Origin: a virus | Virus record (IMG/VR): IMGVR_UViG_3300037140_000126 | Location: 1-64,000 of that record | DNA: 64,000 nucleotides | Strand: one strand, 5' to 3' | Part shown: positions 57,801 to 63,458 of the stretch, in pieces | How the letters are laid out: every line of letters starts with the position of its first letter | Numbering within the stretch: position 1 is the first letter of the stretch | The notes under the pieces: model-generated | Told to the model about the DNA's origin: nothing | The model's input: only the letters and a program-made list of their open reading frames with translations | The model's database searches: none | Position numbers and translations under genes: made by a program

Positions 57801-59136
57801 CATCAAGCAGTTTATTGAATGCCTCTTCACGCATGATGACTTGCGGAAGAATCGCACCATAAGACTGCAACATCAATTCGGCTGGTTGGATTCCTGTAAT
57901 ACGGCCCAGTTGTGCAAACGCCCCGGCTCCTACAGTCCTACCACGACCGATAAAGGCCCGCTGCAAGCTGCTCATTGCTTCTTCGGCGGTGTTGCCCTGT
58001 GCTCTGGCAAGTGCGACAACATCATGGGTCAATTGAACGATTTGGTCGTTCGTAACCCTCATGTTCGACTGCCAAGCGGTATTCACAAAACGCAGAAGAG
58101 GAATGTCCCCCACAAGGTCATGTGTCGCTGTGTGCATCTGGGCCAGGAACTGGGTTGTGTCTGTGCCTTTGATCCTGCCTAGCGCCTCATAGGTAGTCTG
58201 CAAGTGCTGCAACGGCCCAATATTTGTAACGAGTTCAGTAGTAGACTGAATGGCGCTGCGAATCGTGCTGCCTATCATTTCGGCGGCAATAACACCTGTA
58301 AATACACCACCCGCGAGTTCCCGGAAACCTAAGCCACCTACCAAGCTGCGTTCTAACTTTCCAAAGAAACCTTGTTCAACGCCGCCTTGACCGGCTACTC
58401 CACTCATATCACCGGCCAACAGCTTAACCTTGGCTTGCGCCGAATAGAGCCGGTTCAGTGTTGCAATATCGGCGTTATCCAGCTTCTCTTTGATTGCGGT
58501 AGCTTTGATCTGTTCCTGAATCGTGGTTAGAATGCCTTCTTCGACTTCCCTGATTTTTGTTTTGCTTCTTAATTCGCCAGTCGCAATCTGCGCTTGTAGG
58601 CGGGCAGTTTCTTGCGCATAGAGAGGGACAACTTGTTTCGCCTGACGTGCACTTAATAGTTCCGCACGCTGCCGTCTAGTAGCTTCGGCAGCCGTAAGCC
58701 GGGTTTGTCCAGCAATCTGCGAGTTAATCTCACGAGTTTCTTTTTCACTTAGGGTGAGTAGAGCAGCTCTCTGGGAACGCTGGGCTACATTGAGAGGCCC
58801 TATTTTTTGTAGCTCCGCAATTTCCTGCTTCGTGATGGCTAAGTTTTTCTGGCGCAATGCAAGCAGTGCATCATTGCTCAGCTTCTCTTCTTGACTTAAC
58901 TTGACCCGCAAAGCGGTGTATGCGGCTTGTGATTTGCTTGCATCCTGCTGAGCTTGTGCCTGTTTCTTTATGGACTCTAAATTTTGCACAGCTACTTGTT
59001 TCTGTCTTTGATCTTCCTTTAGTAGCCGTTGCTGTATCTCGACAAGCTGGGCCTGGACCTTTTTAATACCCTGAGTAAATTGGGTATCGTCCAGAACCAG
59101 CTTGGCGAGTAGTTTTTTGGTTTCGCTGTCAGCCAT
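51826..59136 (-). CDS. Tail tape-measure protein
   Basis: 2436 residues, by far the largest gene. N-terminal 200 residues are helical coiled coil (KKLLAKLVLDDTQFTQGIKK; LLALRQKNLAITKQEIAELQ). Then hydrophobic segments (FRELAGGVFTGVIAAEMIGS; a glycine-rich stretch near 1365-1390, IIGAIGGTLIGGIMGAISGW), long coiled coil with QQQ-rich repeats (about 1400-1580), and a C-terminal low-complexity S/T/P/G region. The last holds two copies of a module reading YGTDSxxNPxYVD...GQQxG (near 1912 and 2140). Length scales with tail length; at the usual ~0.15 nm per residue this would be a tail of about 350 nm. TAATG overlap with the upstream gene. Confidence 0.92.
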   Translation of the reverse strand: MADSETKKLLAKLVLDDTQFTQGIKKVQAQLVEIQQRLLKEDQRQKQVAVQNLESIKKQAQAQQDASKSQAAYTALRVKLSQEEKLSNDALLALRQKNLAITKQEIAELQKIGPLNVAQRSQRAALLTLSEKETREINSQIAGQTRLTAAEATRRQRAELLSARQAKQVVPLYAQETARLQAQIATGELRSKTKIREVEEGILTTIQEQIKATAIKEKLDNADIATLNRLYSAQAKVKLLAGDMSGVAGQGGVEQGFFGKLERSLVGGLGFRELAGGVFTGVIAAEMIGSTIRSAIQSTTELVTNIGPLQHLQTTYEALGRIKGTDTTQFLAQMHTATHDLVGDIPLLRFVNTAWQSNMRVTNDQIVQLTHDVVALARAQGNTAEEAMSSLQRAFIGRGRTVGAGAFAQLGRITGIQPAELMLQSYGAILPQVIMREEAFNKLLDVTHRKFIEVGDPATTLTDRLTVLGEEWNRTRQAFALELVKSEGFRSFLGLLDEGIQKLRKFEESTHGFADMIGSAFGGVAKAVGFISDHANVFGEIVTDGLKLAGVAVAVDLLTAATTRLDVALGALSMEGMLAVLSKANLITAAIAGILILQAHREEHPGLAFSLLGPSKEEADKAWIKERDRTFGGEKPPATPKPPGPPSEALEGGGRGTSAEAEPTAELDPAYLIKMARIRMKTQELADKEHLDQTKQNLQDEKDANEDAYASIQETFGQYIAEKKRLREEDRQAALLEAKQELDAKLSESKYAEDIAGADFTKQSKAAADALDEAKAQSQAKPGDEAAAKGLQDAANSAADAKRNLNLAGEQYRQDQKQFNKTYEDQVANINTAAAREQSQLSREPEKDVTAAARKIAQARLKIQTDALAEETDETKNHFDEGLISADEYLQKRKTQIEQERIYANDAINDEEQNTELKTSEIAALEIKRFEANADASKKSSDLELQRDEITIKSAQNKYDRISKMRSAQEKIAATPRGAALLGASEVSVIEAEVLETQKFINEQIRSLSAAKEGGKAQEEILDAIAGAEEKQQQLNQRLIQARDLLTPIAGLFEGVANTINSLYSAGPMRGIREVGEGLQAGAQTMKSVASFRETFAKNYGKAPKITQSPELESLLKQSTGAAGGLNEVQSASHGLADALDGLLAKLTGKSDWHAPETWTGLESHAGPTEYDPYGSLNISQFPHHAAGTPFVPQSGLAFLHAGEAVLPSGVIQALSTVVNTLTRTFTQLSDSVGSLATRFSALSTGTAPGATAPLLQTSAVGGLIGSGDIPLGPGFGSGTNMSSVYGDTSSSSGGMLSGVQKFFQLLSGGGKDQGVGAVSSFIGTMTSAVGAVGSFLQSTLGAKNATSGAVGGAMSGESLGQGIGGMAGPAGAIIGAIGGTLIGGIMGAISGWKNSQIMKQIQADVDKLDSISQNLSQGVIGLNQAIQQAELAAVQINNQSTGKKGAGDQAKQQAQQQAAQTLQQLQDQQNKVMQTMQETLNNLVVPTGYQQWMSSIEQILAQYKQFAEAAQSTQQLTQAQQYLTTAMQQYAITEATQVQSAEEAAIQNGINLNNLYLQRQQMMEQFAQQEQGIMSGGVATREVSASASKAAQLQQLQIQYNLQMDQMNMQIATAQYQYETQQQIYGLATTRVGLETQLLTLQMSQTDQQNASNAALLNIVNVIRSTPASQLTTTPQLMSALGLPYSGPTSAQVGPQIGPMTGPYVAGNADYPIAPLYPTVGSSPTVPWDYSSGGSATGTAPATTGGISTLQTAQTAGTSPIYYLTDPTTGNLTAVYNTPTSFAGTATSQVVSPGGLPGIAADVSQAGALEDLFKSIGKQTNAIVAAFNSGTASAQTTLSTISALIAQIPVGSAGSQQLLQQMQTEIGMLNSSVAATATSLLPAENLLPAAPLTAAQQAANLTAAPTILGGQPNLTLYGTDSNSNPVYVDQNGVLYSAAGQQVGNVSATTATFGQPSTAGYYNTPTVTTPTNVIPSTASSTGLGSQSGATTTLQDLLQYPGLGGQASVTLPSGPASTTPPVIFSGTGTSSSTATAPATPQVDYSQTDIDTVVQRLVQKNPILGLATVGSPGALQAMAENIINQNVPGYIAQAIPSKMQAFAASALQNNPGLLAGIGTNSAATTTGTATTSAPSLPSGLIMYGTDSSGNPIYVDVSNGDLFNAYGQQIGSIATNGTAPTSAAPTLSGVSVPGQAPGTSLAAGTAPLPAGSGPSSGPSGPIIPVGSSNPFGNGNPPYVDASGTAWQTTTAQQALYGNLLGSGSTSTTGSSSGRVHSTLSGITAVSPIIAQIATALAATPVLQTGGAISQTGLAVVESGETVIPPSGSVGASATNQATVTLNAAKVSTEQQVSSIASNRIGMEMKLLQMKQQQNQNDLDVLNKYQQVMSAISSGNFSGVSGLIGGASSSSANNSIEDSLYNLYQQRGRYGEGGIAGQYP

Positions 59137-59567
59137 TAGCTGTCACCTTCGGTTTCTTTACTTCGTGCTTGTGCACTGTAAGGAACGAACGGCACGTTGA
59201 CGCCCTGCATCTTGAGAAACTTCAAAGCATCATCCCCAGTTACGCCGCGTAAATCGAGTTCACCTTCTTTATTGAAAAATCTACCGGGCATTCCTGTCGG
59301 TAAATTCGGATCGTTGAAGTAGTCGCGTGCCTCTTCTCCGGGACCGACAGCCGCACTACCCCGCTTCGTCTTCTTGTCCATCAAGTAGGAAGTCTCTTGT
59401 GAACGCCAGCCCACGACGGCCAAGTCTGACTTCGTGAAGCGCTCTTCTATTTCAGTTAGTGGCATCTGAAACGTCTCCACCCAGCTTGCAGCAGCGGCTA
59501 TCTCTGGGTACGCGCTCCCGAAATCGTTGTCAGTCCGCTCGAACCTCGGGAGATTTGCGAGAAAAAA
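59136..59567 (-). CDS. Tail-assembly chaperone T extension (read by -1 frameshift)
   Basis: The frame is open from the slippery heptamer at 59561-59567 down to the TAA that overlaps the tape-measure start, giving about 142 residues. It continues as LANLPRFERTDNDFGSAYPE, then AAASWVETFQMPLTEIEERF, and ends SKETEGDS. A GTG at 59480 could give a free 114-residue protein, but no ribosome site supports it. In lambda the gpT domain recruits tail-tube subunits around the tape measure. Product: GT fusion starting at 60196. Confidence 0.8.
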   Translation of the reverse strand, partial: FFLANLPRFERTDNDFGSAYPEIAAAASWVETFQMPLTEIEERFTKSDLAVVGWRSQETSYLMDKKTKRGSAAVGPGEEARDYFNDPNLPTGMPGRFFNKEGELDLRGVTGDDALKFLKMQGVNVPFVPYSAQARSKETEGDS

Positions 59568-60196
59568 TCGCGCAACCGGTTAATTTGAATTTGCGCATTG
59601 ATGATGTTCCATTGCCGGTAGCTGCTGAGATTGTCCTGTACCCATTCCTGTGTGACTTCTTTTTCTTTACCACGAGGATTGAGAATCATCACGACTGCAT
59701 CCGCCATCAGGTCGAAACCCGGATCGAGCGTTTCAAGCAACTGCTTGATTTTAAGCCCGACATCGCCCTCCATCATGTTGAACGCGAGTGCACCGAGATC
59801 GGATGCACGCGGCAGAATCGTCTCTTTGAAGTTCCTGTAGAATTTCTTTTCAACGGATTGTGGAAGTTCCTTGATCGTGAACTTACGGATTGTTTCTGTG
59901 GATGTCTCCGAGGCCCAAGGCACCTCGACATCGAACGTCAGATACTCTTGCGAAAGCAGCAAGCGGATTTCTTCTTGCGAAGGCGGTGTCTGATTCTTCT
60001 TAAACTCCTTAATGACTTCTTGCAGTGCCGCGTCGTTCTCGACCTGCATCTTCAGTTTGAACGCTTCAATGTCGCGGACAAACTTGGCGTCGTAGCGGCC
60101 TTTTACCTCCGTCTCGATTTGCGAGCGAAGATACTCGACCGCCTGCACGTTCTTGACTTCAAACTCACGCGGTTGCACTTCCTGTTCTATGTCCAT
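59498..60196 (-). CDS. Tail-assembly chaperone G
   Basis: 232 residues, helical and acidic (FEVKNVQAVEYLRSQIETEV...; SVEKKFYRNFKETILPRASD), directly before the tape measure, as in many siphoviruses. Near residue 211 the codons GAT TTT TTC TCG contain T TTT TTC; ribosomes that slip by -1 there make a longer G-T fusion. The normal product ends GARTQR. No GGAGG is close to the ATG at 60196, but GGAGAGAGG is 7 bases upstream. It sits after the tail-tube terminator. Confidence 0.82.
   Translation of the reverse strand: MDIEQEVQPREFEVKNVQAVEYLRSQIETEVKGRYDAKFVRDIEAFKLKMQVENDAALQEVIKEFKKNQTPPSQEEIRLLLSQEYLTFDVEVPWASETSTETIRKFTIKELPQSVEKKFYRNFKETILPRASDLGALAFNMMEGDVGLKIKQLLETLDPGFDLMADAVVMILNPRGKEKEVTQEWVQDNLSSYRQWNIINAQIQINRLRDFFSQISRGSSGLTTISGARTQR
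59561..59567 (-). promoter_or_regulatory. Programmed -1 frameshift site T TTT TTC
   Basis: The minus-strand sequence GCGCGATTTTTTCTC is read in frame as CGC GAT TTT TTC, so T TTT TTC has the X XXY YYZ form. The -1 frame is open for 144 codons from here. This gene position is the classic place for tail-chaperone frameshifting. Confidence 0.8.
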
Positions 60197-60339: not shown

Positions 60340-61628
60340 CTAAATTGCAATATCCTGGCCAGGTTTGGCATAATATGCCGTGTAGCCCACCACGGTCTCG
60401 CCGTCGAGCGGATCATCGAAGGCCAATGCCTCCATGACACAATCCAGCTCGTAGCCCGTCAAGTCGGTTGTCCCGACGTTTTCAATCGCCCAAGCCGCTA
60501 CGTCGCGGAACTGATTGATTGAAACGTGCGGGTAGTACAGTGCAATCTGGGCTTGGTCAATCGTGTCGAGTATGAATAACCCGGACCATTCTGTGATGAA
60601 CGTGCCGCCTTCTCTCGCTGCCCAACCAGAAATCAACTGCACGTTCGACCCGGCTGGCGGTGTACCTTGTGGTGTGTTCGCAGGAACGGCAGTTGTGCCC
60701 CCGCCGCCGCCTACAAACGGTGCGTTGAGTGTGAGCACGTTACCATTGACGGCAATGATTCTCGCAACGAAGTCACTTGTCTTACGGATGTAATCCACAT
60801 CTGTGACGGCGTTTGGAAAGACAGGAACACCCGCCTCACCGATAAGCCCGTATGTTCCAAGCGTATAGTCGATATCGGCTACGATGAAGTCCCCAGCCGA
60901 GGCGCTGATCGCCGCCGCGCTAGTGACAGTGATTGACGGTGTAGCGGCCGAATAGCTGACCATTGCTGTCTTAGGGGCTCCTGAAGCAGACAGCGGGCCA
61001 GCGGTAGTTGCTGTTGAGCCATCCAGCAGGTTGATAGGATTAGTGCCCGTTGCGATCTTGAAGGCCATGCGCGACGCTTCGCGGAACTTGAATTCGAACG
61101 ACTCGCCGACTTGCCCTCTGTATTGCGCCCGGACTGCACCGCGATAACCGGAACGTACTTGGCCGATCTTTGATGCAGGCGTGATCTTGAAATCCTTGAT
61201 CCAGCCCAAATCTGTAAAGCCCGCCGGTGGGGAATACGTATTGAACGGACCACCAGTCTGCAAATCCAGCATCGTCGGGCCTACAGAAGTATTGGCGACC
61301 GACGATCCTAAGGCGGCGTTATAGGGCGCAAAGAATGCCCTATATCCGGCCCCGATCATGAGCATGTTCTTAAGCTTTGTTACAAATCAGGTTTTCTGAT
61401 TTGGGTTGGTCATTTCTGCCAACCTCTTACGGTTCTTATTCCCGTAAGCCCCGACTATTGCATCACCATTCTTGCACTCTCGGTGCCTTCTCGCTTAGTC
61501 TGTCAGCGTCCCTTTAGGGTTCGCCCTCGTTGCCATTCTCAGGGTTCGAGTCAATCAGAGAAGGTTTTACTTCCGCAAGAACGCTACGTGATACGGAAGG
61601 GCTGAACTAATGCCTTTGAGAGTGCCAT
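60340..61628 (-). CDS. Major tail (tube) protein, split by a group I intron
   Basis: Exon 1 is 61593-61628, only 12 codons (MALSKALVQPFR) behind TAAGGAGA. In its frame translation would stop three codons into the intron. Exon 2 runs from about 61374 (or 61368) to 60340 and begins LKN-MLMIGAGYRAFF. Both exon junctions are in phase 0. The joined protein is about 356 residues. Its body (DLGWIKDFKITPASKIGQVR, GESFEFKFREASRMAFKIAT, Gly-rich GGGGGTT insert) matches siphovirus major tail-tube proteins, and it stands before a strong terminator and the tape-measure chaperones. The last 240 residues contain an Ig-like insertion. Splicing of the transcript would be essential for virion assembly. Confidence 0.85.
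61375..61592 (-). other. Small ORF-less group I intron
   Basis: About 218 bases. P1: exon CUUCCGU pairs with GCGGAAG, with the required U-G at the 5' splice site. P10: GUUCUU directly before that guide pairs with AAGAAC in exon 2. P7: R strand GACUA and S strand UAGUC (within GCAAUAGUCGGGG). P8-like hairpin GCAC/GUGC; P9 CUUACGG/CCGUAAG; P9.1 GUUGG/CCAAC; P9.2 CAAAUCAG/CUGAUUUG. The 3' end is a G at 61375 or, alternatively, 61369, both in phase 0. No ORF inside; the endonuclease gene lies upstream at 61722. Confidence 0.83.
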
Positions 61629-61633
61629 TTTAG

Positions 61634-61680
61634 TTAAGTCTCCTTATAGTTACGTTTGGGGCCACTTCCGGTAGACTTAA
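61634..61680 (-). promoter_or_regulatory. Inverted repeat around the tail-tube ribosome site
   Basis: TTAAGTCT (minus 61680-61673) can pair with AGACTTAA (61641-61634). The second arm overlaps AAGGAGA, the ribosome site of exon 1, so pairing would block translation initiation. Confidence 0.45.
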
Positions 61681-61721
61681 CCGAATTGCCCCATGACCAA
61701 CTGTCCTGGCCATCAGCTTAA

Positions 61722-62447
61722 CTATTGGCACTCTTCTTCACATGCTTCCAACGAAGTCAGAATTCTAAACTCAATGTCCGCAGATTTACAAAACGCTCTT
61801 GCGGCCCTAAACTTGGCTTGATTCTTTGGGTCCTTGAGAAAGGCGACTGGTTTGATTTCTTCCAGTATATGCGTGCCATCTGCGTAGCAAATCAGCAAAT
61901 CGGGAAGGTAATAATGCGCCTTGCCATTCAAACTGTATGGAATCCGTACAGGTGTGCGTCTATAACTTGACACTTCGTTAGAAAGTTCAAGCACACGCAT
62001 ACGAGCTAACTCCCAAGAACAGTCGTAATGCATAGTCCTGTGATTCTTTTTGGAGTAGAAGTCACCGTGCTTACCACGGTTTACACGAGTTTTCCAGTAA
62101 CGCTCTGTTCCATCAGCGTCCTTAATAAAGTTACGAATGTTTTGTGCGGGGTCTAAACGCCCGTCGGCAATCGCTTCACGGACACCAGCACTATTCCTCT
62201 CTCGGTGAACGTGGCACACCTTCTTGCCCTTAGGCCATCCCATGTGTATATTATGCTCAAGATTATATGCACGTAGCCGCTTACCATTCTCGACTTTAGC
62301 TTTTGCACCTTCCGCCGTGAAAAGACGAGGGCCACACGAATCTTTCACACCTTTCGGTCGTCCAGCAGCGCTCATATCACGCTTCGCGTAACGCCCATCG
62401 CGCCACGCTTTGCGGAGCTTTGCTTTCTTTTGTTCAGGGCATTTCAT
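61722..62447 (-). CDS. Free-standing PD-(D/E)XK homing endonuclease
   Basis: 241 residues. The N-terminal half has two basic DNA-reading modules (SAAGRPKGVKDSCGP near 28-40 and HMGWPKGKKVCHVH near 68-81, of NUMOD type) and other basic loops. The C-terminal half is a PD-(D/E)XK nuclease fold: E146 in CSWELARM, P182-D183 in YLPDLLICYADG and E197-x-K199 in LEEIKP. The closest fold group is the TnsA/I-Ssp6803I-like homing enzymes. It ends 93 bases before exon 1 of the tail-tube gene and outside the intron. That arrangement suits 'collaborative homing', with the enzyme cutting the intron-less site. It has a GAGGAG ribosome site. Confidence 0.8.
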   Translation of the reverse strand: MKCPEQKKAKLRKAWRDGRYAKRDMSAAGRPKGVKDSCGPRLFTAEGAKAKVENGKRLRAYNLEHNIHMGWPKGKKVCHVHRERNSAGVREAIADGRLDPAQNIRNFIKDADGTERYWKTRVNRGKHGDFYSKKNHRTMHYDCSWELARMRVLELSNEVSSYRRTPVRIPYSLNGKAHYYLPDLLICYADGTHILEEIKPVAFLKDPKNQAKFRAARAFCKSADIEFRILTSLEACEEECQ

Positions 62448-62987: not shown

Positions 62988-63458
62988 TCAGTAAATCCTT
63001 CTTACCATGAGTTGCTGCAAGCCCGCATATCGCTCTGCACCGATAATCTTGATAACGTCAAGCTCCATGTCTTCCTCGGGTGCTTTCATACGCAGCAGCA
63101 TCATCAGCCACATGTACCACCACAACTTTGCAGGCTGCATACTGTCGAACGATTCACACGCAAACGTGAACGTAGCGCCGAATGCGTCTTTCGGTTCAAA
63201 CTTGGCCATCGACAGGCACGCGTCCTTGAAGTTTGTTCTGTAGCAACGCGTCCCAACAAGAGATGCATTGCGTAGATTCGCACCTTCAAAGTTCGCATAG
63301 CTCAAATCCGCATCATCGAAGTTCGCCCCAATTAAACTGGCACAGCGAAAATCAGCATGATCGAGTTTCTGTCCGGAGAAATTGCGGTTCGCCAGTTTCT
63401 TATTATAAAAGTCTTTCCCCACCCTGTCGGCACGTACAGTTGGCATCGTGTTCCCCAT
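62988..63458 (-). CDS. Pentapeptide-repeat protein in the tail operon
   Basis: 156 residues. Residues about 22-85 show pentapeptide rows A(D/N)LXX: ANRNF-SGQKL-DHADF, GANFD-DADLS-YANFE-GANLR-NASLV, ending TNFKD-ACLSM-AKFEP. A right-handed quadrilateral beta-helix is expected. The C-terminal third is a hydrophobic/tryptophan-rich helix (LWWYMWLMMLLRM). Pentapeptide proteins often mimic DNA and inhibit gyrase (Qnr/MfpA type), but placed between two tail genes it may instead be a tail component. Unusual gene for this place. Confidence 0.78.
   Translation of the reverse strand: MGNTMPTVRADRVGKDFYNKKLANRNFSGQKLDHADFRCASLIGANFDDADLSYANFEGANLRNASLVGTRCYRTNFKDACLSMAKFEPKDAFGATFTFACESFDSMQPAKLWWYMWLMMLLRMKAPEEDMELDVIKIIGAERYAGLQQLMVRRIY

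Follow-up and report, generated by a model that had tools for sequence, protein, structure and literature searches.

Collaborative homing is known from only a few pairs, whose origin is debated. One is the psbA intron of cyanophage S-PM2 with the nuclease F-CphI (PMC6083498; Zeng et al. 2009 cited there). It has been demonstrated there both that F-CphI is specific for the gene without the intron and that the intron gives protection (PMC6083498). The same layout is described for T3-like phages (Bonocora and Shub 2009) and for a terminase case, both in PMC10448857. The T4 nrdB gene and mobE are an example of trans homing (PMC2988022). The tail tube gene orf142 of phage Twort is also split by an intron (PMC11878797), and I-Ssp6803I is a PD-(D/E)XK homing endonuclease (Zhao et al. 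2007, cited in PMC10448857). Here we consider a viral locus in which these elements come together. The window is the first 64,000 nucleotides of IMG/VR record IMGVR_UViG_3300037140_000126. On its minus strand a compact group I intron splits what appears to be a tail tube gene, and a PD-(D/E)XK nuclease gene lies next to it (Table 1).

The first-pass annotation had proposed that an intron without an ORF cuts the tube gene after 12 codons, and it suggested looking for intron-less relatives with a contiguous start. The long tube frame, MLMIGAGYRAFF..., begins at 61365. Reading on past exon 1 (MALSKALVQPFR) gives ATC ACG TAG and so runs into a stop. In IMG/VR the tube protein has relatives at 10 distinct loci. 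Nine are intron-less, and the tenth (L185) is split as well. The contiguous start is encoded in 9/9 intron-less relatives, for example as MALSKALVQPFRKN; others read MALSSSLVQPFRKNMM, MALSKALVQPFRKNVL and MPLSKGIVQPFRRNQL. The exons of the window fit all nine without a gap when ...PFR is joined to KNMLMIGAGYR. Since these relatives encode the start contiguously, the 12-codon exon is confirmed, and with it the split gene.

That the product is a tail tube we infer from gene order, which is the sole basis of the name. The order is a connector-like gene, two short genes, the tube gene, two small genes and a gene of 2436 aa that is probably the tape measure. The tube protein matched none of the known families, nor anything in phage GenBank records and GTDB genomes, and its AlphaFold model is of too low quality for a fold search. 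Two other features of this gene block can be mentioned. The head-tail connector genes include one for a pentapeptide-repeat protein (window 62988-63458), which is also found in the relatives L001, L002 and L185. The two consecutive small genes between the tube gene and the probable tape measure (59136-60196) have counterparts in L001 and L002 that overlap, like frameshifted tail-assembly chaperones.

The pairings named in the first-pass annotation (P1 with a U-G at the 5' splice site, P7, P9, P9.1, P9.2 and P10) are present exactly as it gave them. P1 is 7 bp long. We also identified P3, P4, P5, P6/P6a and P8, and these complete the core. With P7 and the pseudoknot of P3 and P7, the P3-P8 core, which covariation shows to be conserved, marks this as a group I intron. 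The letters of P9 and P9.1 are common to the window and the relatives L084, L103 and L185. The intron stretch folds better than 200 shuffles (MFE z = -3.8), and on its own strand it holds no ORF of at least 40 aa. P10 alone is not significant: when the A-rich 3' region is shuffled, a run of 6 turns up somewhere in 33% of cases. Since such runs are common there, P10 was dropped as independent proof.

Table 1. Features of the intron-split tube gene and its neighbour in the window, with the corresponding features of two related loci
Feature	Position	Strand	Details
PD-(D/E)XK (TnsA-like) nuclease gene, free-standing	61722..62447	-	241 aa; PF08722
Ribosome site, ahead of exon 1	61645-61640	-	AAGGAG
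Exon 1, inferred tail-tube gene	61593..61628	-	12 codons, MALSKALVQPFR, ends ...PFR
ORF-less group I intron	61372..61592	-	221 nt if junction CGU/AAGAAC (homology-predicted)
Intron, alternative extent	61375-61592	-	218 nt if last base is G at 61375
P1	61570..61599	-	5' exon CUUCCGU 61599-61593 / internal guide GCGGAAG 61576-61570
P10	guide GUUCUU 61582-61577 / 3' exon AAGAAC 61371-61366	-	6 bp
Catalytic core	61450..61563	-	P3, P4, P5, P6/P6a, P7, P8
P3	CUUCUC 61563-61558 / GAGAAG 61492-61487	-	
P4	61550-61547 / 61529-61526	-	
P6	61525-61522 / 61508-61505	-	carries P6a; P5 also present
P7	61500-61496 / 61457-61453	-	
P8	61485-61482 / 61467-61464	-	
P9	61448-61442 / 61432-61426	-	
P9.1	61424-61419 / 61409-61404	-	
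P9.2	61402-61396 / 61390-61384	-	
Tail motif common to relatives	61378..61383	-	GUAACA
Exon 2, tube gene	60340..61371	-	KNMLMIGAGYRAFF...
L185 intron-split tube gene locus	L185:2258-2490		
L185 nuclease	L185:3623-4393		256 aa; PD..ExK pattern (TPDFYLP...IEVKG); endonuclease/resolvase PHROGs
L186 nuclease	L186:3659-4465		PD-(D/E)XK-type; PF05367 4.6e-7; NUMOD3-like repeats; after intron-less tube gene

Stronger evidence comes from a family of related introns. A P7-motif search of IMG/VR returned 102 stretches, most of which look like group I introns by eye. A covariance model, R1, was built from 6 other viral introns with the window excluded. The P5/P6 loops were trimmed beforehand because a full-loop MAFFT alignment of the six sequences was out of structural register. 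In the R1 alignment 99.4% of cells are paired and 18/29 pairs have two-sided changes. None of 500 shuffles was as good, and sliding controls were far lower. P7 is invariant among the six training sequences and is therefore uninformative alone. The R1 match in the window spans 61563-61450 and scores 89.1 bits (E=6.3e-18), against E=0.68 for the next-best match there; it is the sole significant match in the 124,954-base virus record. Across 29 R1 matches 89.5% of cells are paired and 24/24 modelled pairs are double-changed, in an alignment that is fitted to the model. This confirms the ORF-less group I intron of the first-pass annotation; its splicing is predicted.

The check that had been proposed for this intron, Rfam RF00028, came out negative. 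Neither the window nor a narrow slice of it gave a match at any threshold tried. We do not consider this a valid test, since the Rfam model misses the family. Its cut-off (50) is reached by 0/15 relative loci, and the T4 nrdB intron scores 35.7. The negative is thus a limit of the model; that RF00028 detects some intron subgroups poorly is already on record (PMC11878797). The relative L148 matches RF00028 end to end with 18.4 bits (E=0.015) and is the bridge from the family to Rfam; another relative, L133, gives no match at all. A search of IMG/VR for the pattern TGGCAACG..CAGACTAAG gave 39 matches, none with the downstream P7 strand TAGTC at the right spacing. It must be noted that RF00028 also leaves many other viral group I introns in IMG/VR (L052-L171) unreported, and these often lie within or close to genes for major head proteins.

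The 3' splice site is less clear. Group I introns are expected to end in G. Where the site can be fixed in relatives, it lies 5-6 nt past GUAACA and follows a G. Cyanophage capsid homologues set the L148 junction without a gap at 6 nt past the motif, following a G, and the sites of L133 and L084, read by eye, agree with it. Homology places the L185 junction 5 nt past the motif, also following a G. In the window, homology places the junction 6 nt past GUAACA (GCUU/AAGAAC), where P10 can form. However, the intron would then end in U (61372), and both positions +5 and +6 past the motif are U. The nearest upstream G is at 61375, 3 nt earlier, and its use would add one Leu codon. The site is therefore uncertain by 3 nt (61375 or 61372). 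Splicing may be imprecise or slow because the terminal G is missing from the junction that homology predicts. A literature search for introns with a terminal base other than G returned nothing useful.

The neighbour had been called a PD-(D/E)XK enzyme encoded outside the intron, 93 bases upstream of exon 1, and this holds. The 241-aa ORF at that distance matches PF08722 (E=5e-16) as well as PHROG endonuclease families, with weak matches to TnsA-like solved structures. E146, P182-D183 and E197-x-K199 are invariant in a three-sequence alignment. The domain together with the PD...ExK residues identifies it as a TnsA-like PD-(D/E)XK nuclease. The closest annotated relatives examined, phiXF1_158 and Moonbeam gp26, are about 30% identical, and among IMG/VR and GTDB genomes only Moonbeam matched. 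The AlphaFold model has a mean pLDDT of 36, too low for a fold search. A gene of this type is absent from the same place in the intron-less tube relatives. Elsewhere in the virus record, outside the window, there is a match to an HNH homing-type nuclease (phrog_374; G000:C1:89352-89849).

The second intron-bearing locus, L185, lies in a 119-kb virus record. Its intron is the only R1-family member there (77 bits, E=3e-15) and has the same compact ORF-less form. It sits in the same tube gene, between QP and FRKN, 6 nt from the window site. A nuclease gene follows 39 nt downstream of the tube gene. This nuclease and that of the window are not recognisably related, and the tube gene has the one downstream and the other upstream of it. 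A PD-(D/E)XK gene therefore accompanies both tube-gene introns. The intron of L185 is also the closest to that of the window within the family, sharing 80% of aligned core columns (next 72%). Core DNA identity between the two is 84%; measured in the same way, their exon DNA does not exceed the baseline set by shuffling. The intron tree is weakly supported (47-57%), and the two loci fall in different clades of the tube tree. Because the closest introns sit in different tube clades with exon DNA at baseline, the sequences suggest that this intron lineage moved laterally between tube genes. The insertion points are 6 nt apart, so this was not simple homing into one site.

L186 is the exception among the intron-less relatives. 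Its nuclease is 51% identical to that of L185 and occupies the same place, next to a tube gene without an intron. Nuclease and intron therefore do separate. The site in L186 reads QTFR and not QPFR. This might protect it from the nuclease, but L181 also reads QTFR and has no nuclease. The other eight intron-less relatives have no genes in either tube-gene gap. A flanking nuclease is thus found in 2/2 intron-bearing and 1/9 intron-less loci (P=0.055).

We argue that the best explanation of the whole (intron, split gene, homing nuclease and joint transfer) is collaborative homing, to which we give a probability of roughly 55%. In this scenario the compact intron cuts the tube gene after codon 12 and would have to self-splice before any protein could be made. 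On an evolutionary scale the intron would be mobile. The nuclease would cut the intron-less tube alleles of co-infecting relatives, its predicted target being the conserved LVQPFRKN codons or a site close by. Repair templated by this genome would then transfer intron and nuclease gene together by co-conversion, and the intron would shield its own copy of the tube gene from cutting. It is plausible that the intron relies on the neighbouring enzyme to spread. An ORF-less intron beside a free-standing nuclease, with both absent from related alleles, is what was found, L186 excepted. The layout that the first-pass annotation had read as collaborative homing is consistent with this and strengthened by L185, but the nuclease without an intron in L186 speaks against it. 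So do the 6 nt between the two introns and the missing terminal G at the predicted junction. A further point against it is that the cut sites of free-standing homing nucleases are often distant from the genes that encode them (PMC2988022).

One can imagine instead that the two elements are independent. The nuclease would then home intronlessly and cut elsewhere in neighbouring conserved genes, and the intron would have arrived separately, by reverse splicing or through another enzyme, and hitch-hike. L186 fits this, as do the nucleases of the window and L185, not recognisably related and on opposite sides of the gene. The enzymes near or inside 20 related intron loci fit it too, being LAGLIDADG (7 members) and several HNH families; 13 proteins around these loci match a major head protein. 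Among 105 proteins scanned there 0 match PF08722, so the family is not usually partnered by a PD-(D/E)XK enzyme. However, independence does not explain why a PD-(D/E)XK gene flanks the tube gene at both loci with the intron and is missing at eight of the nine without it. Apart from this gene, one homing-type nuclease of the record was followed up, the HNH match; it is 27 kb away, and by our own estimate chance adjacency within ~130 nt is roughly 0.4%. We regard independence as unlikely, though a serious competitor.

It is considerably less probable that a mobile intron once carried its own endonuclease gene and lost it, and that a free-standing nuclease then settled beside it, with no present cooperation needed. 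HEG turnover has been proposed for a terminase case (PMC10448857). The related introns L166-L168 and L171 do have long insertions around P9, with an HNH-like ORF after the core in L167. However, an intron of 218-221 nt has no remnant of an ORF, and that of L185 is equally compact and ORF-less. The reading without any intron has the tube protein starting at MLMIGAGYR, with the upstream codons and the foldable RNA a coincidence. Apart from the failed RF00028 match it has nothing in its favour and is hardly credible. It is refuted by the nine contiguous relatives, the held-out covariance match (E=6e-18) and the same arrangement in L185.

Going further than collaborative homing at a single locus, we tentatively suggest that the start of the tube gene could be a recurrent target of PD-(D/E)XK homing, with two unrelated subfamilies each paired with the same ORF-less intron lineage. 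We hold this somewhat less probable than not. If true it would be a repeated collaborative homing system with two insertion points 6 nt apart. Alleles of one gene with intron and nuclease, with nuclease and no intron, and with neither coexist naturally, so the model is directly testable by cutting assays. The intron family, often found in head-protein genes, is unreported by the standard Rfam model. Many split capsid and tail genes have therefore probably been missed in phage annotations.

The first-pass annotation called an intron-split tail-tube gene unusual. This is overstated, since Twort orf142 is split too (PMC11878797) and related introns occur in phage head-protein genes. By description, Twort orf142 is likewise a phage tail tube gene with group I introns; it is not known to have an adjacent PD-(D/E)XK partner. 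S-PM2 with F-CphI is similar in that a conserved phage gene carries a group I intron and is adjoined by a free-standing nuclease gene. However, F-CphI has an Endo VII motif and the gene is psbA, whereas ours is a PD-(D/E)XK enzyme beside a structural gene. In the T3-like phages and the terminase case a free-standing homing gene likewise adjoins the intron-split gene from outside the intron; the terminase case has a different host gene. T4 nrdB also has a group I intron and a free-standing nuclease beside it, but MobE is an HNH enzyme and the nrdB intron retains a defective ORF. I-Ssp6803I is evidence that the PD-(D/E)XK class serves homing. It is bacterial and intron-encoded, whereas by description the nuclease of the window is free-standing, TnsA-like and from a phage. 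Bacillus phage Moonbeam gp26 has a TnsA-like domain (28% identity) and also carries a NUMOD3 motif, typical of homing enzymes, but it adjoins an RNase H gene and not an intron-split tail gene. We know of no description of the PD-(D/E)XK class in a collaborative homing role. The layout is already known from T3-like phages, S-PM2 and others, and it is the PD-(D/E)XK partner that seems to be new.
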